This document shows positions 10,370 to 60,321 of a stretch of DNA of 64,000 nt, one piece after another. Numbering within the stretch: the stretch's first letter is position 1; each line of letters opens with the position of its first letter. The stretch is from Arthrobacter endolithicus. GTDB taxonomy: Bacteria; Actinomycetota; Actinomycetes; Actinomycetales; Micrococcaceae. The stretch lies in the NCBI RefSeq assembly GCF_026627425.1, contig NZ_JAPNLH010000004.1, positions 62,001 to 126,000 of the forward strand, given 5' to 3'. The position numbers and the translations under genes are program-made. Below the pieces are notes generated by a model. That model searched no databases, was not told where the DNA came from, and was given only the letters and a program-made list of their open reading frames with translations.

Positions 10370-12136
10370 ATGAGTACCACTGAACCACCGTCCCCCGGCA
10401 CGAAGCCGTCCGGCGTTGAACCCTCGCTCCGTCCGGCCCGGGTCACCCCCGTTCCGCTGTCCGCGCTTGCAGAACTAATTGGTGCTCCGTTGCAGGAGTC
10501 TGGGACTGTCCTGCTGACCGGCGTCAGCCTTGACTCGCGCGCCGTCGAGCCTTCTGATCTGTATTTGGCGCTCCCCGGTGCCAGCGCGCACGGTGCGCAA
10601 TATGCCGGTCAGGCAGTGGCGGCGGGAGCTGTGGCGATCGTGACGGACGACGACGGCGCACGACTTTTGCGCGATCTGCCGGAGATTGTCCGTGTTCCGG
10701 TTCTGGTGGTTCCGTCCCCGCGTAGCATTGTCGGTACGGCGGCGGCCTTCGTCTACGGCACCCGCCACGCTGCGTCGGACGATCCCGCTTCGCGCGATCC
10801 CTCCGCAGCCGACATGGAGCTGTATGCGGTGACCGGAACGAACGGCAAAACAACTACTACGTATTTCATCAATTCCCTGCTCCGGGCCTTGGACTTCACG
10901 CCCGGACTGATTGGAACTATTGAAATCCTGGCCGGAGTCGGGGCTGTGCCCAGCAGGCTGACCACGCCGGAATCGACGGATGTGCATGCCCTGCTGGCGC
11001 TGATGCGTGAGCGCGGGCTGGACGCTGCTGCTATGGAAGTGTCTTCGCATGCCTTGTCCTTCCACCGCGTCGACGGCGTGGTCTTCGATATCGCCGGCTT
11101 CACCAACCTGACACAGGACCATCTGGATCTGCACGGGACCATGGAAGAATATTTTTCCACTAAGGCCCAACTGTTCGGTCCTCGCAGAGCGCGACGGGCC
11201 GTGGTCACTGTGGACGATGTCTGGGGACAACGGCTGGCGCAGGAGGCGGCCATACCGGTTACTACGCTGCGGACGGTTGAAGCAGGCACGGTTGAAGCAG
11301 GCACGGTTGAAGAAGGCACGGTTGAAGAAGGCACGGTTGAAGCCAACCGATCGCGGGAAACCGACGAACAGCCCGATTGGCAGGTCACCCGGGTCAGGAA
11401 ACAGGGATTGGGCAGCTCCTTCGTATTGGCTGCCGCAGATGGCCGCTCGCTGAGCGTTTCGACGGGGCTGCCTGGAACTTTCAACATCGCGAACGCGGCC
11501 TTGGCCGTTCTGATGGTGTTGCAGCTGCAGCTGCAGGACGGCAGTGCGGGCCCGGTGGTTTTGCAACGCGTTCAGTCCGCGTTGGACAGCCATGACCCGT
11601 TCACGCTGGCAGTGCCTGGACGGATGCAATTAGTGGGGAAGTCGCCGGCGGCAATCGTTGATTTTGCGCATAATCCTGATGCCCTCGAGCGCGCCCTGCT
11701 GGCAGTTCGGTCCCCGGAGCCTGATTCAAAGGTGATCGTTGTTTTCGGCGCAACGGGGCAGCGGGACGCAGGCAAGCGCCCGAAAATGGGAGCTGTGGTG
11801 GCTCGGCTGGCAGATGTGGTGATTATCACCGATGACGATCCGCATGACGAGGATGCGGCGGCGATCCGAGCGGACGTGCTGCTGGGCGCCCGCCAGGCCA
11901 ACGACGAACAAGCCCTGGGACATGAGATCCTGGAGGTTTTTCCGCGCGCTGACGCCATTGTCCGTGCGGTTGAACTGGCCAGGGCCCAGGACGTTATCCT
12001 GGTGGCCGGGCGAGGTCACGAAGTCTGGCAGGAAGTGAAAGGGATCAATTATTCCTTGGATGACAGGGCCGAACTCCGCGCTGCCCTTCGCCGCTGCGGA
12101 TTCACCCCGGAGCCCGTTCCCGGGATAGAGTCCTAA
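10370..12136 (+). CDS. murE: UDP-MurNAc-tripeptide synthetase MurE
   Basis: MurE adds the third stem-peptide residue to UDP-MurNAc-L-Ala-D-Glu. The Mur ligase order is intact: an N-terminal UDP-binding domain (VSLDSRAVEPSDLYLALPG), the ATP loop TGTNGKTTTT (Lys160) and a C-terminal domain with DFAHNPDALERAL and VVFGATGQRDAGKRPKMG. Where diaminopimelate-adding enzymes carry DNPR, this one reads TDDDPHDED; lack of that Arg fits L-lysine addition, as expected in Micrococcaceae. That is inference from a motif. Residues 303-322 are a (VEAGT/VEEGT)4 repeat that the fold does not need. At 588 residues it is longer than usual partly because of that insert. The next gene follows after six bases. Confidence 0.95.
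   Translation: MSTTEPPSPGTKPSGVEPSLRPARVTPVPLSALAELIGAPLQESGTVLLTGVSLDSRAVEPSDLYLALPGASAHGAQYAGQAVAAGAVAIVTDDDGARLLRDLPEIVRVPVLVVPSPRSIVGTAAAFVYGTRHAASDDPASRDPSAADMELYAVTGTNGKTTTTYFINSLLRALDFTPGLIGTIEILAGVGAVPSRLTTPESTDVHALLALMRERGLDAAAMEVSSHALSFHRVDGVVFDIAGFTNLTQDHLDLHGTMEEYFSTKAQLFGPRRARRAVVTVDDVWGQRLAQEAAIPVTTLRTVEAGTVEAGTVEEGTVEEGTVEANRSRETDEQPDWQVTRVRKQGLGSSFVLAAADGRSLSVSTGLPGTFNIANAALAVLMVLQLQLQDGSAGPVVLQRVQSALDSHDPFTLAVPGRMQLVGKSPAAIVDFAHNPDALERALLAVRSPEPDSKVIVVFGATGQRDAGKRPKMGAVVARLADVVIITDDDPHDEDAAAIRADVLLGARQANDEQALGHEILEVFPRADAIVRAVELARAQDVILVAGRGHEVWQEVKGINYSLDDRAELRAALRRCGFTPEPVPGIES
11276..11335 (+). repeat. 15-bp tandem repeat (x4) inside murE
   Basis: Two copies of GTTGAAGCAGGCACG and two of GTTGAAGAAGGCACG stand head to tail, followed by a fifth partial copy. 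They encode VEAGT VEAGT VEEGT VEEGT. Near-identical copies imply recent expansion. Confidence 0.95.
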
Positions 12137-12142
12137 ACCGAG

Positions 12143-13732
12143 ATGATTGAACTGACAGCGGCGCAACTCGCCGCGCTAACCCACGGCCACCTGACATCCA
12201 CAGCAGAACCCGGGCTCGTCGTCGCCCTGGGCTTTCTCGTGACAGATTCCCGCGATGCATTTCCCGGCTGCGTTTACGTCGCCAAGCCTGGGGAGTCAGC
12301 GGATGGCCACGACTTCATTAGTGATGCCGTCGCTGCGGGAGCCATCCTGGTGCTGGCAGAGCGGGAGGTCTCCGATCCGACGGGCAGCGCTTACCCGGCG
12401 GTGGTCGTTGCCGATGCCGTTTTGGCTCTCGGTGCCCTGGCCGCGGAAGCCGTGCGGATGATTCGTGCTGCGGGGGAGCTGACTGTCATTGGCATTACCG
12501 GTTCAGCAGGGAAGACCACCACCAAGGACCTGCTGGCGGATATTCTCTCCCGGCTCGGTCCCACCGTGGCACCCAAGGGCTCCTACAACGGCGAGGTGGG
12601 CGTCCCGTTGACCGTCTTTGGCGCCGATGGTTCCACCCGATATCTGATCATCGAAATGGGGGCCACCGGGATCGGCCACATCGAGTACCTGGCGTCCTTG
12701 GTCAAGCCGGACATCGGAGTTGTGCTCGGCGTGGGAACGGCCCATGCCGGTGGATTCGGCTCCATTGAAAACACCGCGCAGGCCAAGGGCGAATTAGTAG
12801 AAGCCTTAGCTGCCAACGGAACCGCTGTACTGAACGCCGATGACGCCCGGGTCCGGGCCATGGCCTCGCGCACCGCGGCTCGGATTGTCAATTTCGGGAC
12901 CGGTGATCGGCAGGCAGAACGGAATCAAGGCCTGGTGCGTGGTGTGGATGTCACGACCAACGACGAGGGGCAGCCCGAGTTCACCCTGCAGTTCGTCGCC
13001 GAGGCAGGCGAGGCCGACAGGGCCGACAGAGCGGCCCAGGCAGGCCCGCCCGGCGTCGGCCAGGCCGACGGGACCGACGGGACAGGGACGAAGGACGAAG
13101 TAGCCACCGGCACGTCCTGGCCCATCACCAGCGGTCTCTTGGGCCTGCATCAGGTTTCCAATCTGCTGGCAGCAGCCGCAGCCGCTCACGCCGCGGGTGC
13201 CCCGCCGGCCGTGATTGCGCAGTCCCTGCGCGGGCAGAAGGCGCTCAGCCGGTGGCGAATGGAACGTACGGTTCGCGGCGATGGAGTGACCGTCATCAAT
13301 GATGCCTACAACGCAAATCCCGAGTCCATGCGGGCCGCGTTGCGCACCCTTGCGGAACTGGGACGAGGCAGTGACGGGGCCGAACACAGGACGTGGGCCG
13401 TCCTTGGGGCGATGCTGGAGCTCGGGCCGGATTCGATCCATGAACACGACGCCATTGGCCGAGTCGCGGTCCGGCTGAATATTTCCCGGCTGGTTGTGGT
13501 CGGGCAACAGGCCCGCGCCATGCACGTCGCGGCTGTAATGGAGGGCTCCTGGGGTGAGGAATCCGTCTTTGTCCCGGACGTGGACGCGGCCTATGCCCTG
13601 CTGCGCGCAGAGCTCCGTCCGGGCGACGTAGTTCTGTTCAAATCCTCCAACGGCGCCGGACTGAGATTTTTGGGCGATCGGATAGCATTACCAACTGACG
13701 GCACCGATGAAGGAAGGACACAGATCCAATGA
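12143..13732 (+). CDS. murF: UDP-MurNAc-pentapeptide synthetase MurF
   Basis: MurF adds D-Ala-D-Ala to complete the cytoplasmic pentapeptide precursor. It has the N-terminal TDSRDAFPGCVYVA stretch, the ATP loop TGSAGKTTTK (Lys124), KGSYNGEVGVPLT and MGATGIGHIEYL, and the C-terminal DAYNANPESMRAAL and AVLGAMLELG motifs. At 529 residues it is long; an extra Ala/Asp/Arg/Gly-rich segment at about residues 290-320 (EADRADRAAQAG then GQADGTDGTGT) looks like a degenerate repeat insert. It starts six bases after murE and its stop overlaps the mraY start as ATGA. Confidence 0.95.
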   Translation: MIELTAAQLAALTHGHLTSTAEPGLVVALGFLVTDSRDAFPGCVYVAKPGESADGHDFISDAVAAGAILVLAEREVSDPTGSAYPAVVVADAVLALGALAAEAVRMIRAAGELTVIGITGSAGKTTTKDLLADILSRLGPTVAPKGSYNGEVGVPLTVFGADGSTRYLIIEMGATGIGHIEYLASLVKPDIGVVLGVGTAHAGGFGSIENTAQAKGELVEALAANGTAVLNADDARVRAMASRTAARIVNFGTGDRQAERNQGLVRGVDVTTNDEGQPEFTLQFVAEAGEADRADRAAQAGPPGVGQADGTDGTGTKDEVATGTSWPITSGLLGLHQVSNLLAAAAAAHAAGAPPAVIAQSLRGQKALSRWRMERTVRGDGVTVINDAYNANPESMRAALRTLAELGRGSDGAEHRTWAVLGAMLELGPDSIHEHDAIGRVAVRLNISRLVVVGQQARAMHVAAVMEGSWGEESVFVPDVDAAYALLRAELRPGDVVLFKSSNGAGLRFLGDRIALPTDGTDEGRTQIQ

Positions 13733-20386: not shown

Positions 20387-21713
20387 ACGGAAACCTCCGG
20401 TCATCCGGACCGACCCCAATAAGCCGGGAACCGGTTTTCGCGACCGTAAACGGGAACGCAGCGACGGCACGGCCACAAGCAGCGCGGTCCATTCAGCAAA
20501 GGTCACCTCAGCAAGGATTGATCCCGCCGGCGGTGGTTTCGCAAATGTTGATGCCGGGCGCAGTAACCCAGGCGAGAGGCAAGGCGGCGACGAACAGATG
20601 GGCGGCGCTGCGCCTGGCATAAATGTCCCCGGCGCCAAGGTTCCCGGCACTGAGGCCCCCGGCGCCAAGGTTCCCGGCACGGAGGCCCCCGGCGCCAAGG
20701 TTCCCGGCACGGAGGCTCCCGGCACGGAGGCCCCCGGTACGGAGGTTCCTGTGACGAAGGTCTCTGTGACGTCGGCGAAGGTCTCCGTCCTCCGGCTGTC
20801 TACGGCATCGGAACCGGCAGCCTTGATCCGGCCGGGGCGTCGGGTGCAGCCGTCGGGCCCGCCACGTGCCGGCACAGACGCTGAAAATCCGGGAGCTGAG
20901 ACGCCAGGCCGCTCAGATCCAGACACAGCTGATCCGTCTGCCGCGACGACGGGTGGTGACGGCTCGTCGGCGAAGGTCTTAGTCTTTCCGGGCGTCCAGC
21001 GGAGGCGGCACAAACGCAATCTATGGATCACCGTCGCCGCCGTGGCCGCACTGATCGCGGTTGTCATGGCTGCCGTCATGTTCTCGCCGTTGCTGGCGTT
21101 GAAGACCATCACCGTGGACGGCAACAAACTGGCAACGACCCAGGCCATCCAGGCAGCACTGGCGCCGTTGTTGGACAAGCCGCTGCCGCAAATCGATCAG
21201 GCGCAGGTGCAAAAGCTGCTGACGCCGTTGCAGCAGATCCGATCGGTCTCCGTACAGGCGAGGCCGCCGTCGTCGTTGTTGGTGCAGATAGTGGAGCGCG
21301 AGCCGGTGGCCCTGCTCAAAACCGACCAGCAATACATTATGGTCGATCCCGACGGAGTGCAGCTCGGTGTTACATCCGATCCGGCCGCTGTTGCACTACC
21401 ACTGATCGACGGCGGCACGGCCGCGATCGGTAAGGAAACGTTTAAAGCCATGACTGCCGTGCTGGCTGCTTTGCCGCAGAGTGTGCTCGGTAAACTGCAG
21501 CATGCTTCAGCGGCGTCCCCGGATGCCGTTGAGCTCACCCTCAATGACGGTAAAACCATCGTCTGGGGCAACGCCAGTGAAAAGGAGTTGAAGGCCAAGG
21601 TGTTGGAGGCACTGCTCAACGCACCAGCGCCGAGCCCCTCGGCCGGTAAGCCGCTGCCGGCGCCTGTGCAGGTCTACGATGTCAGCACGCCCCGGCATCC
21701 GGTGACCCGGTAA
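20358..21713 (+). CDS. ftsQ: Division protein FtsQ (POTRA), with repeat insert
   Basis: FtsQ is a bitopic division protein. The long cytoplasmic N-terminus (about 220 residues) is basic, then Pro/Gly/Thr-rich, and includes the (GAKVPGTEAP) repeats from residue 92. One membrane segment (WITVAAVAALIAVVMAAVMF) is followed directly by the POTRA domain (LLALKTITVDGNKLATTQAI) and the FtsQ beta domain (SVSVQARPPSSLLVQIVEREPVAL). At 451 residues it is clearly longer than many FtsQ proteins, all because of the N-terminal region. ATG 20358 is used here; GTG 20334 or ATG 20376 (MAPRRK) are alternatives. Confidence 0.9.
   Translation: MSRAGDMAPRRKPPVIRTDPNKPGTGFRDRKRERSDGTATSSAVHSAKVTSARIDPAGGGFANVDAGRSNPGERQGGDEQMGGAAPGINVPGAKVPGTEAPGAKVPGTEAPGAKVPGTEAPGTEAPGTEVPVTKVSVTSAKVSVLRLSTASEPAALIRPGRRVQPSGPPRAGTDAENPGAETPGRSDPDTADPSAATTGGDGSSAKVLVFPGVQRRRHKRNLWITVAAVAALIAVVMAAVMFSPLLALKTITVDGNKLATTQAIQAALAPLLDKPLPQIDQAQVQKLLTPLQQIRSVSVQARPPSSLLVQIVEREPVALLKTDQQYIMVDPDGVQLGVTSDPAAVALPLIDGGTAAIGKETFKAMTAVLAALPQSVLGKLQHASAASPDAVELTLNDGKTIVWGNASEKELKAKVLEALLNAPAPSPSAGKPLPAPVQVYDVSTPRHPVTR
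20631..20750 (+). repeat. 30/15-bp tandem repeat inside ftsQ
   Basis: Three 30-bp units encoding GAKVPGTEAP run from 20631 to 20720, followed by two 15-bp units encoding GTEAP and GTEVP. The 30-bp unit is itself two related 15-bp halves. Copies differ by only a few bases. Confidence 0.95.
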
Positions 21714-24029: not shown

Positions 24030-24813
24030 GCAACCACGTCAAGAGCAGCCGGTCGATCAACGCAGGAGCTCAGAGCTGGGAAGGAATCTGGAGCAGGTGC
24101 GGTTTCGGATCGCCAGCGCTGCCGATAAGCGCCCGGCTGGGATGGCCGATCCGGAGCTGATCGTGGTGACGAAGTTCCACAGCGCCGCGGATGTTCTCTT
24201 GCTCGCGGGACTTGGCGTTCGGGACGTAGGGGAGAACAAGGATCAGGAAGCGGCGGCTAAGTCGGCCGAGGTTTCGCAGCGAAACACGGGAGCCATCATG
24301 CGCTGGCATTTTATTGGCCAGCTGCAGTCCAATAAGGCGAAATCGGTGGCTGCCTATGCGTACTCCGTCCACTCCGTAGACCGACCGGGGCTAGTAAAGG
24401 CACTGAGCACGGCTGTCACCGCGGAACAGCAGCGCACCGGCCGGGCTGATTTGCTGTGTTTCGTACAGGTGAACCTGGATCCGGCATTGGCAGCAGTGCC
24501 AGGAACGGCAGTGCCCGGAACGGCGTCCCGGGGTGGGGTGCCGGCAGAGGGCGTGCTGGCTCTGGCAGAACTCATTGAACTGGCTCCCGGCCTTCGGCTG
24601 GCAGGTGTGATGGCTGTGGCACCGCACGACGGTGACGCCGGCGAAGCCTTTGCACGACTGGCCAAGGTATCTGCCGTCGTCGTCCAGCGCTTTCCGCAGG
24701 CAACGGCCATTTCAGCCGGCATGAGCCAGGATCTGGAACGTGCCATCGCCGCAGGAGCGACACACCTGCGTGTCGGATCCGATATCCTCGGCCCGCGGCA
24801 GGCCTTGAGGTAG
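24016..24813 (+). CDS. YggS-family PLP homeostasis protein
   Basis: This is a pyridoxal-phosphate-binding TIM-barrel protein of the YggS/PLPBP family, which buffers PLP and affects amino acid balance. The PLP lysine is Lys53 in VVTKFH; GVRDVGENKDQEA, WHFIGQLQSNKAK, VHSVDR and the C-terminal SAGMSQDLERAIAAGATHLRVGSDILG are all family motifs. Residues 160-169 are a duplicated AVPGT pair (15-bp units at 24493-24522) not needed by the fold. It overlaps pgeF by 14 bases and precedes sepF. Confidence 0.94.
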   Translation: MSVDEQPRQEQPVDQRRSSELGRNLEQVRFRIASAADKRPAGMADPELIVVTKFHSAADVLLLAGLGVRDVGENKDQEAAAKSAEVSQRNTGAIMRWHFIGQLQSNKAKSVAAYAYSVHSVDRPGLVKALSTAVTAEQQRTGRADLLCFVQVNLDPALAAVPGTAVPGTASRGGVPAEGVLALAELIELAPGLRLAGVMAVAPHDGDAGEAFARLAKVSAVVVQRFPQATAISAGMSQDLERAIAAGATHLRVGSDILGPRQALR

Positions 24814-26009: not shown

Positions 26010-26795
26010 ATGGCGCTCACGCCAGAAGATGTTGTCAACAAGCGGTTTCAGCCAACTAAATTCCGTGAAGGCTATGACCAGGACGAAGTCGACGACTTTC
26101 TTGACGAGATCGTTGTTGAACTCCGCCGATTGACCCAGGAAAACGAGGAGCTCCGCAAGAAACTCGCCGCGCAGCCTGCGGGTTCCGCATCCGCCGCCTC
26201 TGTGCCGGCACCGATTGTGGAAAAGATTCCGGCCGGAGACAGCAAGAGCGATGACGTCAAGGCCGAGACGAAGGCCGCTAAGTCCGTCGGCAAGGGCAGT
26301 GACATCAAGGGCACTGACATCAAAGGCAGCGCCTCGCCCAAGAGTGACGCCGCATCCACAAGCCCGGTTCCGCCAGTGGATACCAAGGCTGCTTCTGCCG
26401 AAGCGACCCCAGCACCCGCTGCTGCCGCACCTGCCGCCACCGCGCCGACCGCCAACGCCGCCGGCATCGATTCCGCTGCCGGGGTGCTGGCAATGGCCCA
26501 GCGTCTGCACGACGAATACGTCAACGCCGGCGTTGAGCAGCGCGATAAGATCATAGCCGAGGCTCAGGTGGAAGCCAGCTCGCTGGTCAACGACGCGCAG
26601 GAGAAAAGCCGGAAAACTCTTGGGGCGCTGGAACAGCAGCGCTCCGTGCTGGAGCGCAAGGTCGAGCAGCTTCGCGGCTTCGAACGCGATTACCGAGCCC
26701 GACTGAAGGCCTACATCGAAGGCCAGCTGCGCGATCTGGACGCCCGCGGCTCGGTCGCATCAGCGGACGTCTCGGACAGCAACGCCGATTCCTGA
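26010..26795 (+). CDS. divIVA: Polar growth protein DivIVA (Wag31)
   Basis: DivIVA/Wag31 is the coiled-coil protein that marks curved membrane at poles and directs polar wall growth. The N-terminal membrane-binding domain is clear (MALTPEDVVNKRFQPTKFREGYDQDEVDDFLDEI), followed by a first coiled coil (VVELRRLTQENEELRKKL), a long Ala/Lys/Ser-rich linker with (GSDIK)(GTDIK) repeats at 26295-26330, and a second coiled coil (AQRLHDEYV to LKAYIEGQL). The length of 261 residues is in range. A strong terminator follows. Confidence 0.96.
   Translation: MALTPEDVVNKRFQPTKFREGYDQDEVDDFLDEIVVELRRLTQENEELRKKLAAQPAGSASAASVPAPIVEKIPAGDSKSDDVKAETKAAKSVGKGSDIKGTDIKGSASPKSDAASTSPVPPVDTKAASAEATPAPAAAAPAATAPTANAAGIDSAAGVLAMAQRLHDEYVNAGVEQRDKIIAEAQVEASSLVNDAQEKSRKTLGALEQQRSVLERKVEQLRGFERDYRARLKAYIEGQLRDLDARGSVASADVSDSNADS
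26295..26330 (+). repeat. 15-bp tandem repeat inside divIVA linker
   Basis: GGCAGTGACATCAAG and GGCACTGACATCAAA are adjacent 15-bp copies followed by a third partial GGCAGC, encoding GSDIK GTDIK GS in the linker. Confidence 0.85.
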
Positions 26796-34922: not shown

Positions 34923-34940
34923 GGGCGGCAGCCCATCTGA

Positions 34941-34997
34941 GGCAGGATAGCGTATCTGGGGCCGGATAGCATATCTGAGGCCGGATAGCATATCTGA
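34941..34997 (+). repeat. 19-bp tandem repeat (x3) between nrdR and ppgK
   Basis: Two identical units GGCCGGATAGCATATCTGA and one diverged unit stand in tandem in the 3' intergenic space. Each contains GATA-GCA-TATC, a small inverted repeat. Partial copies flank the array on both sides. Confidence 0.9.
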
Positions 34998-35018
34998 GGC
35001 CGGAGTGCACAGTAGACT

Positions 35019-42633: not shown

Positions 42634-44184
42634 ATGCAGAGGCTACCGATAGCCCGACGAACCCGGCGCGGCGGCTTCGCCGTAATGGGCGTGTTATTGA
42701 CCGTCTTGGCCATGTTTTTCGGTGTCAGTGGTGCTTGGGCACAGGGTCCGTCTGCCCAGCCGAAAGCTGCCCAGGCGCTCGCTGCGTCGTCGTCGAACGT
42801 TGCGCCGTCGTCGAACGTTGGGTCGTCGAAAGTCGAGGGCAAAACCTTCACTATCGGCACCGACACCACGTTTGCCCCGTTTGAGTTCCGCGACAGCAGC
42901 GGCGAACTGGTCGGCATTGACATGGATATTATCCGGGCCGTAGCCAAAAGCCAGGGTTTCACCGTGGAGGTGAAGTCGCTCGGATTCGCCGCGGCATTGC
43001 AGGCACTGTCGTCGAAGCAGGTGGACGGGGTCATCGCTGCAATGTCCATCACGGACGAGAGGAAAAAGGTCTACGACTTCTCCGATCCGTATTTCGATTC
43101 CGGTGTGCAGATGGCCGTCGCCAAGGACAACACGGATATCAAGGGCTATGCGGACCTAAAGGGAAAGACGGTCACCGCCAAAACCGGCAGCGAAGGGGAG
43201 ACGTTCGCAAAATCCATTGCGGCCAAGTACGGCTTCACTATCAAGGCGCTTGACCAATCGGCGACCATGTATGAACTGGTCAAATCCGGCAATGCCGCCG
43301 CTGTCTTTGACGACTATCCCGTGCTGGCCTACGGCGTCAGCCAGAACAACGGACTGAAAACGGTAACCGCAAAGGAGGCCGGCGGATCCTATGGATTCGC
43401 GGTCAACAAGGGGCAGAATGCGGACCTGATGGCCGCCTTCAACACCGGGCTGGCGGAGCTGAAGGACAATGGCCAGTACCAGAAAATCCTGGATAAGTAC
43501 CTCAAATCCCCGCAGGACACTGTATCGGCGGACAGCAGTTTCTGGGCGCTGCTGGTCCAAAGCATGCCCGCGCTGCTGAAGGGTCTGCAGAACACCGTCG
43601 TTGTGACGCTGATTTCCTTCGCATTCGCCATGCTTCTTGGACTGTTTTTTGGCTTCCTGAAGGTCTCCCACAACATTGTCATGCGTGGTGCAGCCACCAC
43701 CTTCGTGAACATATTCCGCGGTACTCCGCTGCTGGTGCAGGCGTTTTTCTTCTACTTCGGACTGCCGCAGATCATCGGCCAACCGGTCAATATCTGGGTT
43801 GCCGGTGTGCTGACCCTGAGCCTGAACTCTGCCGCCTACGTCACCGAGATCGTCCGCGGCGGCATCCAGTCGGTGGATCCCGGCCAGCTGGAAGCCAGCC
43901 GCAGCCTTGGGCTTGGCTACGGCACCTCGATGCGTCGCGTCGTGGTTCCTCAGGCCTTCAAAATCATGACTCCGTCGCTGATCAACCAACTGGTCATCCT
44001 GCTCAAGGACAGCTCCCTGCTGCTGGCCATCGGTTTCGCCGAGTTGCTGTACCAGGGACAGCAGATCTACTCCAATAACTTCCGCATCAGCGAAACGCTG
44101 CTGATTGTGGCCGCGATGTACTTTATCGTGATCATGATCCTGACGAAGCTGTCCAACATCGTGGATAAGAGGTTCAACAAATGA
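42634..44184 (+). CDS. Fused amino acid ABC binding protein-permease
   Basis: One polypeptide of 516 residues joins a solute-binding domain to its permease. The N-terminus has a signal or anchor segment ([22 protein letters not shown]), then a Ser/Asn linker with an 18-bp repeat ([12 protein letters not shown]), the binding domain ([28 protein letters not shown], about residues 70-290), and a permease with about five membrane segments ([22 protein letters not shown] onward) holding the EAA loop ([25 protein letters not shown]). This fits polar amino acid uptake of the glutamine/glutamate type. The fused arrangement occurs in some Gram-positive bacteria. It couples by ATGA overlap to the ATPase. 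Confidence 0.93.
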
Positions 44185-49236: not shown

Positions 49237-50241
49237 TTAGTGTGCGGCCAGAAGGGTCGCCGCCTCCTGGCGGGTGGATCCCGAATCGGCGATGTGCGCC
49301 AGTTCTTCCGGTATCGTCAGGCCCTTCTTGCGCATCGCCGTCGCCCAAAGCCGACCGGCGCGGTAGGACGAGCGCACCAACGGTCCTGCCATGACGCCGA
49401 GAAACCCGATTTCCTCCGCTTCCTGCGCCAGTTCCACGAATTCCTGCGGCTTGACCCAGCGGTCCACCGGGTGGTGACGCTCACTGGGGCGCAGGTACTG
49501 GTTAATAGTGATCAGATCGCAACCGGCCTCGTGCAGATCGCGCAACGCCGAGGAGACTTCCTCCCGCGTTTCCCCCATGCCGAGGATCAAATTCGATTTA
49601 GTGACCATGCCCAGATCGCGTCCCTGCGTGATGACTCCGAGCGACCGCTCGTAGCGGAACGCCGGTCTGATGCTCTTGAAAATACGCGGAACAGTCTCGA
49701 CGTTGTGCGCGAAGACTTCCGGCCGCGAGTCACAGATGGCCCCTATGTGCTCGGGTTTGCCGGAGAAATCCGGAATGAGGATTTCGACGCCGGTGCCGGG
49801 GTTCAGCTCGTGGATCTTGCGGATCGTTTCGGCGTACAGCCAGACTCCCTCGTCCGGGAGATCATCGCGCGCCACTCCGGTGACAGTGGCGTAGCGCAGC
49901 TCCATTGCCTTGACCGAACGGGCCACCTTGGTGGGCTCAAAGCGGTCCAGCGGAGAGGGCTTCCCGGTATCGATCTGACAGAAATCGCAGCGGCGGGTGC
50001 ACTGCGCCCCACCGATCAGGAACGTAGCCTCTTTGTCTTCCCAGCACTCAAAAATGTTAGGGCAGCCCGCTTCCTCACAGACCGTATGCAACCCCTCCTT
50101 TTTGACCAGGTTCTTCAGGCCGATGTATTCCGGGCCCATCTTGACCTTCGCCTTGATCCAATCGGGCTTACGCTCAACGGGCGTTTCGGAGTTGCGCTGT
50201 TCAATGCGCAACATCTTGCGGCCTTCGGGTGCCAAGGTCAC
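49237..50241 (-). CDS. lipA: Lipoyl synthase
   Basis: LipA is a radical-SAM enzyme that inserts two sulphur atoms into protein-bound octanoyl groups. The auxiliary cluster Cys residues lie in [12 protein letters not shown], and the radical SAM motif [10 protein letters not shown] follows; [19 protein letters not shown] and [15 protein letters not shown] are further family motifs. GTG 50241 is preceded by AAGGAG and overlaps the lipB stop as GTGA, giving 334 residues. It follows lipB in an operon and modifies the lipoyl domains of sucB encoded 11 kb away. Confidence 0.97.
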
Positions 50242-50954
50242 AGTAGAACTCCTTCTGCCGGTGCCGGTCCGGTGGGGCCGCATCCGCTCGCGTCATGATG
50301 AACGTCCGGGGCAACGAGCGCCCCTTCGTACTTGTAAAATTCCTCTTTGATCCTTGCGGTCAGATCCGCCGGGCGAACGTCCAGACCTGTCTCCGCCGCA
50401 ATGGACGTGGTGCCTGCGTCCGTGATCCCGCAGGCAATGATCATTGAATACGGAGTCAGATCATTGTTGCAGTTAATGGCAAAGCCGTGCATTGTGACGC
50501 CCTCATGAACGCGAATGCCGATGGCCGCAATCTTGCGCGTCGGCCCCTTGCTGTCGGCCTCGATCCAGATCCCGGCGCGGCCTTCAACCCGGCTGACCAG
50601 CAGCGAATAGCCGCTCAGTACATTGATGATGATTTCCTCGAGGATGCGGACGTACTGGCGGATACCATGCGGATCCCGTAACGCCAGGATCGGATACCCC
50701 ACCAGCTGCCCTGGACCGTGCCAGGTCAGCTTTCCGCCGCGGTCGACCGCAATCACCGGCGTGCCGTCAAAGGGCCTCTCGTGGTCTTCGGTCCGCTTGC
50801 CCGCGGTGTAAACGGCCGCGTGTTCAAGTAACAGGACAGTGCTGGGTGCACGGGAGGCCAGGACGTCACCGTGCAGCGTGCGCTGCAGATCCCACGCCTG
50901 TGTGTAATCTACGAAGTCCGGTGCGAAACCGACCTCAGCGAACTCAAGAGTCAT
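50238..50954 (-). CDS. lipB: Octanoyltransferase LipB
   Basis: LipB moves an octanoyl group from acyl carrier protein to lipoyl domains, the first step before LipA. The product (238 residues) shows [48 protein letters not shown] with the active Lys and [22 protein letters not shown] with the catalytic Cys. The ATG at 50954 matches the family start. TACCCT lies seven bases upstream, so the message is nearly leaderless. It overlaps lipA by four bases. The 105 bases up to the kinase-like gene hold a divergent promoter pair. Confidence 0.95.
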
Positions 50955-51047
50955 GAACTCAAGGGTAGACCTCTTGAACCGCAGGCCTAAATCCATCCGG
51001 GAACAGGCAACCTGTGGATAACTTCTGCGGTCCGGCTGGATTTGGGC

Positions 51048-51059
51048 TATTCCTGAGGT
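51048..51059 (+). promoter_or_regulatory. Possible leaderless-type promoter of kinase-like gene
   Basis: TATTCC at 51048-51053 ends six bases before ATG 51060, matching the spacing elsewhere, but its last base is C not T. Confidence 0.4.
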
Positions 51060-53141
51060 ATGGATAGTTTCGGCCGGGATGACGCCGCCAGGACCGGGGT
51101 CGATGACGCCGCCAGGACCGGGGTCGACGATGGATTGGCAGCCGGGTTCGACGACAGACTGGCAGCCGGGTTCGACGACGGACTGGTTGCCACCCCTGTC
51201 CTGCCGGGCTACCGTTCCGAGCGGCTGCTCGGCACCGGGGCAAGCGCGCAAGTTTGGTTGGTCCAGCATGAAGGAACCGGCGAACTCCTGGCGGCGAAGT
51301 GCTTCCCGCCCGTCGTTGCAGATGTGGAAGCTGCAGGCGTGGCAGCTACAGGCGTGGAAGCTGGAAGTGTGGAAGCTGGAGGCGTGGAAGCCGCAGACGC
51401 GGGCGCCACGGGTGCGGGCGGGAACGCCGGTGGTGCCGCAGTTGCCGGAGTCGCCGGGCCGGGAGTTGCGGGCCCACTAAATGCGGCACCTGGCTTATGT
51501 TCCGGCCCGGCATTGCTGCGCGAACTGCGTATCCTGGGAAATTTTAGCCACGAACACCTGCTCACAGCCCGGGGCGTCGTTGGACTGTCCGGCAGCTGGC
51601 GCGGCGGTAGAGCGCTGCTGATGGACTATGCACCAGGCGGATCCTTGGCGGGTCTGGTCGCCATCCGCGGGCGGATCAGCGTTGGCGAGGCCGTCACCGT
51701 CCTCACGCCGCTGGCCCAGGTGTTAGGTTACCTGCACGGCGAGGGTGTTGCGCACGGTGATGTTTCCCCGGGCAATGTGCTCTTCAGCGCTCAGGGCAAA
51801 CCGATGCTGGCCGATTTTGGCGTCGCGAGAATGGTGGGCGAGGCCGGGCGGCCCCAATTCGGGACCCCGGGATTCTTTGCAGCAGCCCGCCGCGATCCGG
51901 AGTCCCGAAGGCCTGGTGGTACCGCCGAGTTCGATGATCCCCTTCGCGATGGTCCCCTTCGCGGTGATCCACTCAGTGATCAACTTCATGGTGATCCCCT
52001 TCATGGTGATCCCCTTCACGGTGATCTCCTACGCGGTGATGCCGACCTGGCTTTGGATACCACGGGCGATGTGTATGCAGCCGCGGCCGTAGGTTGGTAT
52101 GCCCTAACCGGGCAAGTGCCCGGGGATACGGACTCTCGGCCGCCGCTTTCGGCCTTCGTGCCGGGCGTGCCGGAGGAGCTTGCTGCCGCCCTCGAAGCAG
52201 GATTACAGGAGGCTCCCTCACGGCGCCCCACGGCGATGGAATTTGCCCAGGCCGTGTACCGCAGCGCGCCGGCTGCGCCCATCGATCTGTCCAGCGCAGT
52301 TCACCCCAGTGTCCTCCCCGACCTGCTGACGCGTCGAAAGGTGCGGGCGCCGCGCGCCCGCTGGTACAAGCCGGGAGACTGGCTCAGCCGGCCCTTCGCT
52401 GCCGGTCCACACCTGCCATCAACTCGGCAAGACGGCAGGGGAATCGACCGTGCCCGGGACCGCAGCCACCGGCACAGGGACCTTCGCGGTGGCAATCATC
52501 CGCGCAGGAACAGTCGGGCCGTGGCGGTGGCTGCTGGTGGACGACATCATCTGCGCAGCAGGACCGTCCGAGGGATCCGTGCGGTTGCGGCTGCGCTGGT
52601 CCTGCTGCTGCTGGCGGCGGCATGCATGCTGATGTGGGGGACGATGCCGGCGGGGCCTCTGGCGCCGGCAGACGTCGATACGGAAGCTGTACCACCGCAC
52701 GATGCGCTGCTGTCCTTGGCGGTTCCGGACAGCATTCGGATCAGGCTCGCATCCAACGCCCCCTCAGAAGCCCTCGGTGCCCTGGCCTGGCTGCGGTCCT
52801 ACGCCTTTTCGTCCGGACAGCCCAACATGCTGCAGTTTGTTAACGTCAGCGGTTCGCCCGCCGCGGCAGCGGACGGGGACGTTGCCGCGGCGCTTGAGCA
52901 AAAGGGGCACGTGCTGAGCGGGTTGGAAAGCCAGGTCCTCAACGTCACGGAATTGGCAGACGAGCTTCCCGATTCAGCGGAGCTCAACGCCACCACAGTG
53001 ACCAGCGGTTTCGCCGAACAGGACGGGCAGGGCGTGGTGGTCCGGACGCAACCCGACGCCGTCACACAGCAGCTGTTGTTTGTGCTCCACCGGGAGCAGG
53101 GGCGCTGGCGGATCGCCGAGGTTCACCAGCCCCGCCCATGA
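51060..53141 (+). CDS. Atypical protein kinase-like membrane protein
   Basis: This 693-residue protein has a Ser/Thr-kinase-like domain (about residues 50-410), a low-complexity linker, one membrane segment near 520 (AVAAALVLLLLAAACMLMWG) and an outer domain with no family I recognise. Kinase marks include the Gly loop LLGTGASAQVW, AAK (Lys80), HGDVSPGN (Asp234 and Asn239 kept, but the usual Lys of HRDLKPEN is Ser236) and DFG at 252-254. The activation segment is expanded by a DPLHG repeat array, and an Ala/Gly/Val-rich insert sits between Lys80 and the alphaC region. The APE motif is degenerate. Catalysis is thus uncertain: it may be an active atypical kinase or a pseudokinase. Confidence 0.85.
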   Translation: MDSFGRDDAARTGVDDAARTGVDDGLAAGFDDRLAAGFDDGLVATPVLPGYRSERLLGTGASAQVWLVQHEGTGELLAAKCFPPVVADVEAAGVAATGVEAGSVEAGGVEAADAGATGAGGNAGGAAVAGVAGPGVAGPLNAAPGLCSGPALLRELRILGNFSHEHLLTARGVVGLSGSWRGGRALLMDYAPGGSLAGLVAIRGRISVGEAVTVLTPLAQVLGYLHGEGVAHGDVSPGNVLFSAQGKPMLADFGVARMVGEAGRPQFGTPGFFAAARRDPESRRPGGTAEFDDPLRDGPLRGDPLSDQLHGDPLHGDPLHGDLLRGDADLALDTTGDVYAAAAVGWYALTGQVPGDTDSRPPLSAFVPGVPEELAAALEAGLQEAPSRRPTAMEFAQAVYRSAPAAPIDLSSAVHPSVLPDLLTRRKVRAPRARWYKPGDWLSRPFAAGPHLPSTRQDGRGIDRARDRSHRHRDLRGGNHPRRNSRAVAVAAGGRHHLRSRTVRGIRAVAAALVLLLLAAACMLMWGTMPAGPLAPADVDTEAVPPHDALLSLAVPDSIRIRLASNAPSEALGALAWLRSYAFSSGQPNMLQFVNVSGSPAAAADGDVAAALEQKGHVLSGLESQVLNVTELADELPDSAELNATTVTSGFAEQDGQGVVVRTQPDAVTQQLLFVLHREQGRWRIAEVHQPRP
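51078..51173 (+). repeat. 24-bp repeats at kinase-like N-terminus
   Basis: Two identical 24-bp units encode DDAARTGV (51078-51125), followed by two 24-bp units encoding DDGLAAGF and DDRLAAGF (51126-51173). Confidence 0.9.
51936..52040 (+). repeat. 15-bp repeat array in kinase-like activation segment
   Basis: About seven units of GATCCCCTTCATGGT type (one shortened to 12 bases) encode a DPLHG-like run from residue 293. It lies between the activation loop and the helix that follows (DVYAAAAVGW). Confidence 0.93.
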
Positions 53142-54147: not shown

Positions 54148-54159
54148 TAAGATCGGACA
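54148..54159 (+). promoter_or_regulatory. Leaderless-type promoter of tricorn-like gene
   Basis: TAAGAT at 54148-54153 is followed by six bases and ATG 54160. Confidence 0.6.
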
Positions 54160-57100
54160 ATGACCACTTCCAGCTATTTCCGATTTCCGCACGTCCACGC
54201 AGACATGGTCACGTTCGTGGCGGAGGACGACGTTTGGGTGGCGCCGCTGGGTGGCGGCCGGGCGTGGCGGGTGTCGTCCCTTCAGCTCCCGGCAAGGAAC
54301 CCGCGATTCACCCCGGACGGCAGCCACCTGGTGTGGACGGTGATCCAGGGCGCGGCGCCGGAGGTGGTGAGCTCGGCTGTCAACGGCGGTGGCTTCCGCC
54401 GCCTGACGTATTTTGGGCATCCGAGCACGAAGGTCAAAGGGTTTACCGCCGCGGGGGATGTCTTGGTGACGAGCGCATTTGAGCAAGCAGAGAGCCGTCA
54501 TACCTGGGCCTATGCAGTGAAAACAGATGGGGCCAGTCGCAGCCTGCTGCCATACGGCCCGGTAGAATCCGCCGCCTTCGGCCCGGAAATCGGAGACGAG
54601 CGACCCGTCGTCGTCTCTTCCGTATTGTCCCGCGAACCGGCATGGTGGAAGCGGTACCGCGGCGGCACCGGCGGGAAGCTGTGGATCGATGCCCATGGAT
54701 CGGGAGAATTTTCCCGGCTCGTGCCCGGGCTGGACGGCAATTTAACCGATCCCATGTGGATTGGGGACCGCATTGCATTCCTCTCCGATCACGAGGGATA
54801 CGGCAATGTCTACTCCGTCCGGCCCAACGGTGACGGGCTGCAGCGGCACACCGACCACGAGGGGTTCTACGTCCGGCATGCTGCAACGGACGGACAGCGG
54901 GTAGTTTTCGAGTCTTCCGGCAGTCTGTTCCTATTGCCCAGCCTCGATGCCGAGCCGGTCAAGCTGGAGATCACGCTTGGTTCGGCATCCACCGGACGCC
55001 GACCGCGGGCGCTGAACGTCGGCGAGCACCTGGGTCAGATCATGCCCGACGAAACAGGCAGGGCCAGTGCATTGGAGGCCCACGGCACGGCGCATTGGTT
55101 GACGCACCGTGACGGTCCGTCACGGATTCTGGAGGCAGCTCCCGGCGTTCGGGCCCGTCTGGTCCGGCCGCTGGGTAGCGGGAAGGTGATTTACGTTGCC
55201 GATCACGGCGGCGTCGAGGCGCTTTACCTCAAAGACATTACTGGCGGTGTATCAGAGAAGTCCGCAGCTGCGCTGCCCGGGAACGAGAGGACCGGTCAGG
55301 AGCCTGCGGCAGACAGTTCCGGCGCAAGCGGTACTGGCCGCCCGGCGGCAGCTACGCCCCCGGCCCCGCAGGACGAACTGCCGCGGCCCGTCTCGGCCGC
55401 CGCTGTCAGTCAGGACAGTGCGGCAGCTGCCGCACTCCCGGCGCAGGAGGTCGATGCCCCGGACTATGACCCGCGCCCGGGTGGAAAAGGGGCGACTGGG
55501 CGCCCGCCGGTGTCACCAACCGCGGACGGTGCGGCAGCCTGGGCCAGCTCCGCAACGACGACGGACGCTGGATACCCGGCCGTTCCTGGCACATCGACGA
55601 AGCGGATTGATTTTGCGGGCATAACCCGCGCCAGTGAGATCGCCGCGAGTCCGGACGGCCGATTTGCTGCCATCGGAACCGAATTCGGCGCCGTGCTAAT
55701 CCTGGACGTTGCAGCGGAAACCCTGCGCGAGATCGCCAGCACCGACGCCGGAGCAATTGGCGAACTTGTCTTCAGCCCCGACTCAGCCTGGTTACTGTGG
55801 GCGGAACCCGTAGGTGCCGATACCAGCCGTTCCCGGATACGGCTGAGCAGAGTTGGTGACCCCGTTAGGGAAGACACCGTGGGGGAAGACTCCGCTGGGG
55901 ACAACACAGCGCGGATCATCGAACTGACCGATGGACGGTTTGCCGATCACGGTGCTGCTTTCACCCGGGACGGCCGCTTCATCGCATTTTTGTCACAGCG
56001 CAGCTTCGATCCCGTCTATGACACACACGGATTTGATCTCAGTTTCCCCTCCTCAACCAAACCGTTCCTGATCGCGCTGGCCACCAATACGCCGTCGCCC
56101 TTTGGCCCTTCAGTGGAAGGTACCGAGGCCGAGCCGGACGCCATGACAGCTGCCGGCGACGAGCCGCTGGAACTGGTGGTCCACGCGCAGGGCATTGCCG
56201 ACCGGCTCATTCCGGTGCCGGTTCCGCAGGGCAACTACGAAAAGCTCAGTGCGGCGGACGGAGCGTTGCTTTGGCTGGCCGGTGCGGGAGAAGGTGTCAC
56301 AGGCGACGGTCGTGCAGTGACAACGGACGAGCCGACGGCCCAGCGGCTGGAACGGTTCGATATTGCCAAGCGCGAGGTCAGCACTCTGGTACCGACGGCC
56401 AGCGCCTATCGCGTGACCGGGGACGGCAAGCGGGTCCTGGTGGTGCACGAGAACAAGGTTCGTGTGGTCCCGGCGAACGCGAAGGTGGAGGAGAGCGCCC
56501 CGGAGAGTGTCACCGTGGACCTGAGCCGCGTTCGCGTCCAGCTGGAGCCGCTGAAGGTATGGGGCCAGGCGTTTGACGAAGCGTGGCGCCTGCAAAGGGA
56601 TTTCTACTGGACTGCCGACATGGCAGGGATCGACTGGCAGGGTGTTTACGACCGATACCGGCCGCTGGTGGAGAAACTGGGCTCCCACGATGACCTGGTG
56701 GATTTGCTCTGGGAAATGCACGGGGAACTGGGGACCTCGCATGCCTACGTCACGCCGAAACCGGTCACCGAGGTGGACGCTGGCCAGCAGGGGAGGCTCG
56801 GCGCTGATCTGAAGCGTACCGACCAAGGCTGGGAAATTCAACGGGTCCTTCCCGGAGAATCGTCGGATCCGCAGGCCCGTTCGCCATTGACCGCGCCCGG
56901 TGCCGGTGTGCTTCAGGGCGATGTAATCCTGCGAATCGACGGCGAGGACGTGCCTGCAGAAGGACCCGAAACGCTGCTGGTCGGCGCCGCGGAGAAAACC
57001 GTGGAACTAACCGTACGGAACGGCCGCGGGCACGCTGGAGCCGCGAACGACGGCGGCGCGGGCGCGGTGCGCCGGATCGCCGTTGTGCCGATAAAGGATG

Positions 57101-58031: not shown

Positions 58032-58460
58032 TTAAGACTCCAGCGAGGCCGTCAGCGTAATATTGACGCCAGCCAGTGCCGCAGAGACCGGGCAGCCGGA
58101 CTTTGCGTTGTCGGCAATACGCTGGAAGTCTTCTTCGCTGAGCCCGGGAACCTTCGCCTTGAGCGTCAAGTGGCTGCCGGTGATGCCTTCTCCCGGCTGG
58201 AAGGTCACATCGGCGGTGGTATGAACCTCGTCGGGAGTCTTACCTTCTTCGCCCAGCATGTTGCTGAATGCCATGGAGAAGCAAGCCGAATGAGCGGCGG
58301 CGATCAATTCTTCCGGGCTGGTCTTGCCTTCAGCCTGCTCCGAGCGAGCCTTCCAAGTGACGTCGTAGGTGCCAACGCCGGAAGTATCCAGCGTGACCTG
58401 CCCGGAACCACTGGGCAAATCGCCGTTCCAGACGGTATGGGCTGTGCGTGTAGTAGCCAT
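58032..58460 (-). CDS. OsmC/Ohr-family peroxidase-like protein
   Basis: OsmC-family proteins reduce organic hydroperoxides using two Cys residues. The 142-residue product has both: AAHSACFSMAFSNML and AKSGCPVSAAL. SPEELIAAAHSAC is the family signature. ATG 58460 follows AGGAG and matches the usual start and length of OsmC; an in-frame extension upstream is not needed. It is probably a single-gene unit, with the terminator at 57940-57978 after it. Whether it is OsmC or Ohr proper cannot be settled, but the sequence looks more OsmC-like. Confidence 0.92.
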   Translation of the reverse strand: MATTRTAHTVWNGDLPSGSGQVTLDTSGVGTYDVTWKARSEQAEGKTSPEELIAAAHSACFSMAFSNMLGEEGKTPDEVHTTADVTFQPGEGITGSHLTLKAKVPGLSEEDFQRIADNAKSGCPVSAALAGVNITLTASLES

Positions 58461-58557
58461 GCTAACTCCTAGGGTAGTTGGTGCTGCCAGTAGGCTGTGG
58501 AACTTTGCCGGTACTGGCGGCGGATGTTCCAATACGTCCTTACTGTCCCACCCTATG

Positions 58558-58580
58558 CTGTGCGAAGAGACTTCGCACAG
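58558..58580 (-). terminator. Hairpin terminator of second HNH gene
   Basis: CTGTGCGAAG (58558-58567) pairs perfectly with CTTCGCACAG (58571-58580) across an AGA loop, eight bases beyond the stop codon on the minus strand. Confidence 0.7.
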
Positions 58581-58587
58581 GCCGGCC

Positions 58588-60321
58588 CTAGAAGGGTGGG
58601 GGTTGGGGGTTTTTGGTGTAGGTCCGGCCGGTGGGTGAGGTGTGGATGAAGGTGCCTGGGGTGGGTTGGCTGACGGTCCAGCCGGTGCCTGGGTTGTCTT
58701 TGAGGTGGTGGTCTGTTGTGCAGAGTGGGCCGAGGTTGGTGTCGCTGGTTTCGCCCAGGGGTACGGGTGTGCCGTCGGTGGCGTAGGTTTGCCGGTAGTA
58801 GGGGATGGTGTGGTCGATGTCGCAGTCCCTGGCGGGTTTGTCGCAGCCGATGCCGCGGCAGGTTTGGTCCCGGGTGATGATCCAGCGTTTGAGGTCTGCG
58901 GGCGGGTCGTGTTGGCGGCGTCCGATGGAGAGGATGGTCCCGGTTTCGGGGTCGGTGAGGATCCGTAGCCAGGATGTTGCTTTCCCGGCCAGTAAGCGGG
59001 CGGTCTCGAGGGGGATTGGTCCGTAGCCGTCGAGGACGGCGGGTTTGTCTTCGACGCCGAGGAGGGTCAGGACGGGCACGGTCACGGCGATCTGCGCCGG
59101 CGCCCACCGCCGACCGCGTACCAGGCCGCCCCGGGCCCCGGTATGGGATCCGGCCGCGTCAGCCCGGCCCAGCCCGGCCCTGCCAGTGTTGGAGCTGCCG
59201 GTGTTGGAGCTGCCGGTGTTGGTGGTCCCGGTGCAGGTGGTACGGGTGTTTCCGGGACCGGTCTCAGGGACCGGGGCGGTCTCGGTGTCGGTGCTGGCAT
59301 CAGTGTCGGTGTCGGTGTCGGTGTCGGTATCGGTGTTGGGGTTGGTGGTGGTGTCGAAGATGTCGGTGAAGACGTCGGCGCGGTATTCGTTGATGGCGCG
59401 GGAGGGTTTCCCTCCGGGTGTGGACGCGGTGGTCGGTTCGCCTTCTTGTTGCGCGCGGTGGGCCCAGGCGTCGATGGTCTCGTAGAGCCGGCGGGCATCC
59501 ACGGCGGAAAGGTGCGCGCCGATGTCGGCCATGCCATCGGCTTGCGGGGTGAACCAGACATCACGGGTGGTGCGGGCGCGTTCGAAGCGGGCGGTAAGGG
59601 GTTCGGGATCGAGTTTCTCGGCCATGACCCGGGCGTGGCGTTCCAGTGCTTTCGGTGTCAGGGACGGTGCGGTCCCGGCGATCGCGGCATCGACCCGTGG
59701 CCATAGGTGTGCGGGGGTGGTGGCGAGGCCGGTGAAGATCGCCTGCACCCGTGCTTTGTCTAGGATCCCTTGTTCGTGCAGGGCCAAGGTGGCCGGGAGG
59801 AGCTGGGTGAGGTATTCACTCTGGTCCATCAGCCGTTGCGCGGCGAAGGAGCTCAGATGCAGGACGGCACCGATTTCCGCGGCGGCGTGTTTGGAGCGCT
59901 CGGAAATCCATTCGGACCGGGCCGGGACCGTGGAGCGCCGGGGTGTTTCCTCCGGCAGTGGCGGACGAACGGTCGCGAACGCCGCGACGGCCCGGGCCTG
60001 GACGGCTTGGGCCCAGGAGATCAGTTTCCCGGCGGCGCCGGCGTAATCGAGGAATTCATCGGCTCCGCCGCCGGCGGGATTCAGTTCAGCCAGGGCCGTG
60101 GCCGCCGCGATCGGGTCCAGGGCCGCGGGGTTGTCCTCCCGCGTCAGGGCGGCCAGCAACGCGCGGGGACCGGCCTGCGGGTGCCTGAGGTCCTTCTCGG
60201 TAACGTATTTGGCCGGACCCCAAAACAGCTCCGGCAACCCGGCATCATGAACGTTCCGGGCATGTCCGGGAGCCTCGAGGAATTCCTCCAGAAGCGCCTC
60301 AAAACCCCGACCGGTTCCCAT
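58588..60321 (-). CDS. Second DUF222/HNH endonuclease-like protein
   Basis: This 577-residue protein has the same layout as the gene at 845-3502: an N-terminal alpha-helical DUF222 region, including LLPATLALHEQGILDKARVQAIFTGLATTPAHLWPRVDAAIAGTAPSLTP and MAEKLDPEPLTARFERARTTRDVWFTPQADGMADIGAHLSAVDA, a repetitive linker ((TD)n and SSNTG repeats, 59186-59230 as 15-bp units), and a C-terminal HNH region (DQTCRGIGCDKPARDCDIDHTIPYYR and LCTTDHHLKD). The HNH part differs in detail, so the two are divergent paralogues. ATG 60321 lies six bases after TATGAT, fixing the start. The role is unknown. Confidence 0.9.
   Translation of the reverse strand: MGTGRGFEALLEEFLEAPGHARNVHDAGLPELFWGPAKYVTEKDLRHPQAGPRALLAALTREDNPAALDPIAAATALAELNPAGGGADEFLDYAGAAGKLISWAQAVQARAVAAFATVRPPLPEETPRRSTVPARSEWISERSKHAAAEIGAVLHLSSFAAQRLMDQSEYLTQLLPATLALHEQGILDKARVQAIFTGLATTPAHLWPRVDAAIAGTAPSLTPKALERHARVMAEKLDPEPLTARFERARTTRDVWFTPQADGMADIGAHLSAVDARRLYETIDAWAHRAQQEGEPTTASTPGGKPSRAINEYRADVFTDIFDTTTNPNTDTDTDTDTDTDASTDTETAPVPETGPGNTRTTCTGTTNTGSSNTGSSNTGRAGLGRADAAGSHTGARGGLVRGRRWAPAQIAVTVPVLTLLGVEDKPAVLDGYGPIPLETARLLAGKATSWLRILTDPETGTILSIGRRQHDPPADLKRWIITRDQTCRGIGCDKPARDCDIDHTIPYYRQTYATDGTPVPLGETSDTNLGPLCTTDHHLKDNPGTGWTVSQPTPGTFIHTSPTGRTYTKNPQPPPF
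59186..59230 (-). repeat. 15-bp repeats in second HNH gene
   Basis: Two identical 15-bp copies and one diverged copy, read on the plus strand as GTGTTGGAGCTGCCG, encode SSNTG-type repeats on the minus strand. Confidence 0.88.

Follow-up and report, generated by a model that had tools for sequence, protein, structure and literature searches.

In-frame 15-bp tandem arrays in Arthrobacter endolithicus and a possible mutational preference for 14-18-bp tandem duplications

In a 64,000-nucleotide stretch of the Arthrobacter endolithicus genome (the window), arrays with a 15-bp unit were confirmed as real, and we lean, with some reserve, towards reading them as traces of a mutational process that acts across the whole genome and prefers tandem duplications of 14-18 bp, the products of which are then filtered for reading frame within genes. 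Stretches of about this length seem to be duplicated head to tail more often in this genus than in its closest relatives.

Arrays in the window and in related species

Arrays in the window were called with Tandem Repeats Finder (TRF below), while a strict rule (S), under which matched bases must at least equal the unit length and mismatches are penalised heavily, served for the comparisons; P marks Pfam support.

11273..11343, +: 15-bp array, 4.7 copies, 96% matches; murE, within the Mur ligase middle domain (TRF, S, P)
20627..20771, +: 15/30-bp array; ftsQ N-terminal part, ahead of the POTRA domain (TRF, S in part, P)
24493..24524, +: 15-bp duplication, 2.1 copies, 94% matches; yggS-like gene (TRF only)
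26291..26329, +: 15-bp array, 2.6 copies, 87% matches; divIVA (TRF, S)
51324..51396, +: diverged 15-bp array, 4.9 copies, 81% matches; kinase-like gene (TRF, S)
51932..52040, +: 15-bp array, 7.5 copies, 80% matches, 6% indels; kinase-like gene (TRF, S)
55868..55900, +: weak 15-bp duplication with indel, 2.1 copies, 88% matches, 5% indels; tricorn-like protease gene (TRF only)
59180..59233, -: 15-bp array, 3.6 copies, 89% matches; second DUF222 gene (TRF, S, P)
2163..2215, +: 24-bp array, 2.2 copies; first DUF222-HNH gene (TRF, S)
1127..1154, +: 9-bp array; first DUF222-HNH gene (TRF, S)
2627..2680, +: 9-bp array; first DUF222-HNH gene (TRF, S)
3270..3319, +: 9-bp array; first DUF222-HNH gene (TRF, S)
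34935..35004, no strand: 19-bp array, 3.7 copies, unit not divisible by three; outside called genes (TRF, S)
42783..42828, +: 18-bp array, 2.6 copies; ORF 42634-44184 (TRF; absent from strict list)
51078..51127, no strand: 24-bp duplication; overlap of the kinase ORF start with a lipoyl-ligase-like ORF on the opposite strand, which makes its coding assignment ambiguous (TRF, S, P)
63833..63868, no strand: 12-bp array, 3 copies; outside called genes (TRF, S)

A self-match scan of the window at shift 15 returned eight segments with a score of at least 13, compared with none in ten codon-block shuffles of the same DNA; as the shuffled window yields nothing at this spacing, the arrays are real, and the claim of the initial annotation that 15-bp arrays lie in at least seven unrelated genes is borne out. 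The strict rule keeps six coding 15-bp arrays, namely those in murE, ftsQ (in part), divIVA, the kinase-like gene (two) and the second DUF222 gene; the yggS and tricorn arrays do not pass it. Pfam matches agree with the identities of the Mur ligase, FtsQ, DivIVA, protein kinase, tricorn and two DUF222 proteins, and the sole match in the yggS-like gene is Ala_racemase_N. Two genes had been described as HNH genes; both carry DUF222, but Pfam places an HNH domain in the first only.

The units at different loci share no sequence: for 40 units of 15 bp the mean best match was 7.70 of 15 positions, compared with 7.61 in shuffled units. A mobile or dispersed repeat family was therefore rejected, and the earlier proposals that the unit sequences are unrelated and that a shared process acts on many loci both hold. 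Copy number was found to vary between species, with the murE, ftsQ, yggS, divIVA, kinase and tricorn sites differing in length and sequence among relatives. In the sister species G004 the murE array has about 1.7 copies instead of 4.7, the divIVA linker carries its own, longer array of five-residue units, and the kinase site at 51324 holds a diverged array whose period, read off the protein alignment, is similarly five residues; at the 51932 array, G001, G002 and G004 have a gap.

Unit length, reading frame and array boundaries

Unit lengths were counted in about 0.68 Mb of the 3.96-Mb source genome and 0.41 Mb of relatives, with genes called by an in-house codon scorer. Before counting, we excluded L053 (same-genus contig), L070 (Kocuria), and L104, L109 and L120 (non-Actinobacteria), as well as the dcw stretches L142, L143, L145, L147 and L149 and the search loci L001-L031; L176, L177, L182 and L187, picked at ftsQ-like repeat matches, were counted apart and used for gap and sister-site alignments. 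Coding units of 12-30 bp in the source genome and genus numbered 6 at 12 bp, 34 at 15, 14 at 18, 2 at 21, 4 at 24, 3 at 27 and 2 at 30, so that 15 bp exceeds both 18 bp (P=0.003) and 12 bp (P=4e-6). Units of 9 bp, the detection of which demands more copies, numbered 14, and the suggested preference for 15 bp over 9, 12 and 18 bp is thus upheld in the sampled coding DNA. The most frequent unit is 15 bp in the source genome, in the genus and in the other Actinobacteria when pooled; among the six genomes at order level, units of 9 and 12 bp outnumber it.

The units that are not multiples of three point in the same direction. In the source genome and genus, 12 of 20 such units between 10 and 28 bp measure 14, 16 or 17 bp (P=4e-4; P=0.006 with 13 bp included), 17 of the 20 being mixed or outside called genes, and in other actinobacteria 13, 14, 16 or 17 bp account for 10 of 14 (P=0.002). 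Arrays of 14-18 bp are denser outside genes than inside, both in the source genome and genus (97 per Mb, n=13, vs 46, n=32) and in the rest of the family (22 per Mb, n=3, vs 8, n=6). Taken together, the 14-, 16- and 17-bp units and the higher density outside genes suggest a process at the DNA level that favours 14-18 bp, while frame selection in genes would retain the multiples of three and so leave 15 and then 18 bp. Among arrays of at least 12 bp, multiples of three make up 65 of 68 coding cases compared with 13 of 27 non-coding or mixed ones, the latter share exceeding one third, so that some of these are probably coding. The remark of the initial annotation that frame explains the multiples of three and leaves the choice of 15 bp unexplained is accordingly supported, although the preference looks like one for 14-18 bp. 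With so few frame-shifting units in genes, these coding arrays do not bear the signature of phase variation (contingency). Self-complementarity of the units was not raised in 69 arrays (longest stem 3.72 vs 4.25 in shuffled units).

Perfect arrays of two to fewer than three copies (n=37) carry a mean of 4.6 extra matched bases at the boundary, where about 0.8 are expected by chance, and 22 have at least four; this excess suggests that short direct repeats slipped or annealed with one another. In sister species, the alleles matching murE (9 of 10 bases) and one G004 array (4 of 5) have the boundary repeat but lack the additional copies. Among 21 sister-site alignments, few of them readable, the repeat was clear in two and weak in two, and it was absent at the readable site L133:14049. 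Above-chance head-to-tail copies, boundary direct repeats and copy-number change between species, by which arrays arising from slippage at microhomology are recognised, were all observed.

Gaps in protein alignments within the genus show local excesses at five residues (31, 41 and 23 gaps of 4, 5 and 6 residues; P=0.011) and at ten (8, 18 and 5 gaps of 9, 10 and 11; P=0.021), these values coming from overlapping genome pairs; control pairs, compared over dcw genes only, lack them. The disjoint pairs (own-G004 and G002-G001) have no five-residue peak (8, 8 and 4 gaps of 4, 5 and 6 residues), yet the ten-residue class still stands out (1, 6 and 1 for 9, 10 and 11). Only 3 of the 41 five-residue gaps between species were demonstrable as duplications.

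Density in the genus and its possible causes

In a rate test that excluded the window and the dcw stretches, the genus had 45 arrays of 14-18 bp in 827 kb, a density 5.3 times that of 14 further genomes of the family, where 9 were counted in 880 kb (P=1.5e-7 with the counts pooled, P=0.018 with genomes as units). Against the six order-level genomes the difference was only 2.2-fold (54 vs 25 per Mb; P=0.098 with genomes as units), and it may be that the family is low instead of the genus being high. The excess over the family is specific for size, as 9-13 bp gave 20 vs 11 and at least 19 bp gave 6 vs 5, and it persisted at three mismatch penalties; one codon-block shuffle per sample contained no 14-18-bp arrays. 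Exceptions among single genomes were G003 (none in 27 kb) and G014, from outside the genus (three in 40 kb).

None of nine gene families, Ku included, accounts for the genus excess. A loss of mutation-avoidance genes was rejected, since the PolA-type 5'-nuclease, the Exo VII large subunit and NucS were matched in all 29 genomes; MutS was matched in one (G004). Y-family polymerases (29 of 29) and LigD-type primase-polymerases (18 of 29) do not set the genus apart, Piwi had no match in any of the 29, and DUF222, matched in 22, was not followed by array density.

We propose that a strand end would back up by about 15 nt and re-pair where a short direct repeat, roughly 4-8 bp in length, offers a match; the stretch between the repeats would thereby be copied twice, with further copies added by later slippage. 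Purifying selection would then clear most out-of-frame products in genes, and the survivors, mainly of 15 bp and next of 18 bp, would sit in length-tolerant loops and linkers. Such a process would be visible throughout the sampled actinobacteria, at a density in the genus about five times that of other family genomes and twice that of the order-level genomes, for which our preferred candidate cause is an altered replication or repair enzyme that changes how slipped loops form or are removed. A stronger version is tentative and, in our estimate, rather doubtful: that the genus has, through one changed enzyme of this kind, a heritable mutator whose effect is confined to tandem duplications of 14-18 bp and which steadily lengthens the loops and linkers of proteins, essential ones included, with about 15 nt as the enzyme's physical constant and a lower level in other Actinobacteria.

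Duplication at an ordinary rate with slower decay or contraction in the genus, for example because loops of 14-18 nt go unrepaired or purifying selection is weak, is unlikely but deserves weight, as old diverged arrays (51324) exist beside perfect ones; generally slow decay should however raise all lengths, and what was seen is roughly fivefold at 14-18 bp, twofold at 9-13 bp and hardly any change from 19 bp upwards. The loss of a repair step specific for such loops may still fit this pattern. Selection on proteins, under which duplication of DNA has no preferred length and units of five residues are kept for their use as flexible linkers, would fit the position of the genic arrays at places of between-species protein length variation and the shared coding mode of 15 bp in the genus and the pooled others. 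We nevertheless hold it improbable, because arrays of 14-18 bp reach a higher density outside called genes, where units of 14, 16 and 17 bp are present, and because the unit sequences are unrelated.

Two enzymatic sources appear weaker still. Non-homologous end joining (NHEJ), in which Ku and LigD seal staggered breaks after fill-in and the overhang is thereby duplicated, could draw on the Ku found in all five genus genomes; in the rest of the family, however, arrays of at least 12 bp are equally frequent in Ku-positive (10 in 480 kb) and Ku-negative genomes (9 in 400 kb; P=1, a correlation only), and plain fill-in would not be expected to leave 4-5 bp of boundary microhomology, which makes this route very unlikely. 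Least credible of all is nicking about 15 nt apart by the HNH (DUF222) proteins: both such genes in the window bear arrays, but DUF222 matches do not track density, numbering 34 in G008 and 35 in G012, where density is low, and 2 in G001, where it is high.

Relation to known systems

Multi-residue indels are, in our view, a main source of new protein loops, though the mutations behind them are poorly understood in bacteria. If a lineage had a single narrow length class elevated both in and outside genes, it would offer a natural experiment on what sets duplication length. It would also advise caution, since an indel of five residues in such a genome may stem from biased mutation and not from adaptation.

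Among the matches listed, no title or opening of an abstract reported a preference for 14-18-bp tandem duplications in bacteria. Replication slippage at short direct repeats shares the boundary microhomology and the copy-number change; it is not known to have an optimum near 15 nt or a lineage-specific rate of this kind. The arrays of a survey of prokaryotic tandem repeats and coding satellites (PMC6749651) are likewise mostly species-specific, with many coding and with units in multiples of three, but the survey concerns long tandem repeats, and its available passages hold no 14-18-bp preference common to genes and non-coding DNA. The small tandem duplications at breaks that are linked to Pol alpha-primase are likewise short and head to tail, and reportedly form a mutation class of their own that an enzyme brings about; they are described for the human genome (PMC8355091). 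Tandem repeat-mediated mutagenesis of KPC enzymes similarly changes tandem repeats in a bacterial enzyme gene; that case reportedly concerns one resistance gene (PMC12593533), whereas here many unrelated loci in one genome are affected.

Tandem arrays of the window and the sampled genomes

The initial annotation had placed 15-bp repeats at seven loci of the window, all of which were recovered by Tandem Repeats Finder together with the 9-, 18- and 24-bp arrays, and no 15-bp self-match arose in ten codon-block shuffles of the window. Under a strict rule, by which matched bases at least equal the unit length and mismatches are heavily penalized, six 15-bp arrays of the window pass; the yggS and tricorn repeats fail. 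Two ORFs whose true starts are uncertain overlap head to head (~210 bp), in a region with 24-bp repeats:
50238-51269, minus strand, lipoyl-ligase-like ORF
51060-53141, plus strand, kinase ORF

The A. endolithicus genome (3.96 Mb, 72 contigs, 99.97% complete) carries the window on contig C44, and among 80 loci the closest named matches of its MurC are from Arthrobacter and other Micrococcaceae. The strict rule was run on the window plus 40 further stretches of this genome (614,925 bases), on genus relatives (405,727 bases) and on other actinobacteria, the genus panel comprising this genome (G000) and four further ones (G001-G004). Its floor of 12 matched bases compares 12- and 15-bp units fairly, while 9-bp units need a third partial copy. 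Coding calls came from a codon-usage scorer that we wrote, and some assignments will be wrong.

Unit length inside and outside genes

The preference for 15 bp, first proposed from the window, was borne out: among multiples of three from 12 to 30 bp it is the commonest coding unit of the own genome and genus (34, vs 6 at 12 bp and 14 at 18 bp; 21, 24, 27 and 30 bp occur 2, 4, 3 and 2 times, respectively). It is the mode in other groups as well, albeit with no clear lead over 12 bp (P=0.05; 12:21, 15:34, 18:8, and two each at 21, 24, 27 and 30). Coding units of 9 and 12 bp outnumber those of 15 across six order-level genomes (9:12, 12:10, 15:6), and five stretches of E. coli K-12 (250 kb) hold a single array, of unit 12 bp.

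Frame is irrelevant outside genes; there, units of 14, 16, 17 and 19 bp occur alongside 15 and 18. Among non-multiple-of-three units of 10-28 bp in the own genome and genus, three of them called coding, 12/20 measure 14, 16 or 17 bp, where an even spread expects 3 in 13 (P=4e-4; 0.006 with 13 bp included), the length classes having been picked after the data were seen. Units divisible by three make up 65/68 of arrays of at least 12 bp in genes vs 13/27 elsewhere. Were a DNA-level process to generate units centred at 14-18 bp, frame filtering in genes would leave 15 and 18 bp. Three long arrays lie outside called genes:
L184:11304-11488, a stretch of G002, 17-bp unit, ~11 copies
L158:15584-15738, own genome, 18-bp unit, 8.6 diverged copies, called non-coding, which could be an uncalled gene
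L141:16342-16631, at a contig end (G003:C149), 28-bp unit, ~eight copies, adjoined by an offset two-copy array of this unit

Boundary repeats and protein length

Perfect arrays of 2 to <3 copies extend past two full units by a mean of 4.6 bases (at least 4 bases in 22/37), where random flanks would give about 0.8, a pattern left by duplication between short direct repeats. In other actinobacteria, the 25 coding arrays extend to a similar degree (mean 4.0) and the 8 arrays outside genes less (mean 2.0). In murE of the sister species G004 two ten-base stretches 15 bases apart are 9/10 identical, with no further copies; the window has 4.7 copies. At L133:9948, G004 has a duplication where the own genome has one copy and boundary five-mers 4/5 identical. 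Sister alignments gave weak boundary repeats at L136:4332 (3/5) and L171:237 (3/4) and none at L133:14049; the remainder of the 21 sites were too diverged or were arrays themselves.

The array sites, at which relatives are gapped or carry another sequence or another array, are places of variable protein length:
Mur ligase, middle domain
FtsQ, N-terminal part
DivIVA, linker
kinase, two places

Gaps in genus protein alignments, whose genome pairs overlap, peak locally at 5 and 10 residues (4:31, 5:41, 6:23; 9:8, 10:18, 11:5), whereas 51 control pairs, confined to dcw genes, fall off smoothly (218, 136, 105; 45, 36, 25). Two disjoint genus pairs lack the 5-residue peak (8, 8, 4) and keep the 10-residue one (1, 6, 1). 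We take these peaks as supporting evidence only.

Array density in the genus and candidate causes

With dcw regions and the window left out, the genus (G000 counted in) has 45 arrays of 14-18 bp in 827,436 bases, vs 9 in 880,000 bases of 14 other family genomes (P=1.5e-7); the counts are 20 vs 11 for 9-13 bp and 6 vs 5 for at least 19 bp. The 14-18-bp counts are 49:14, 45:9 and 41:8 at mismatch penalties 2, 3 and 5; among stretches of 15 kb or longer, 26/39 from the genus and 7/44 from the family contain such an array, and densities are 46 vs 8 per Mb in genes and 97 vs 22 outside.

None of nine gene families separates the genus by presence or absence among 29 genomes. NucS, 5'-nuclease, Exo VII and Y-family polymerases are matched in all 29, DUF222 in 22, LigD-type primase-polymerase in 18, Ku in 17, MutS in one and Piwi in none. 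The MutS genome is G004, with two MutS_V matches in two ORFs (G004:C6:11300-13314). We therefore favour a 14-18-bp DNA process with a frame filter at moderate confidence.

Per-genome samples are small, and the genome-by-genome test of the excess over the family is weaker than the pooled one (P=0.018; G000 49, G001 71, G002 46, G003 0 and G004 100 per Mb; family range 0-75). Comparison with the six order-level genomes (10 arrays in 400 kb) gives P=0.098 when genomes are the units and 0.021 when counts are pooled. The genus thus ranks above its family in 14-18-bp array density, with other actinobacteria intermediate.
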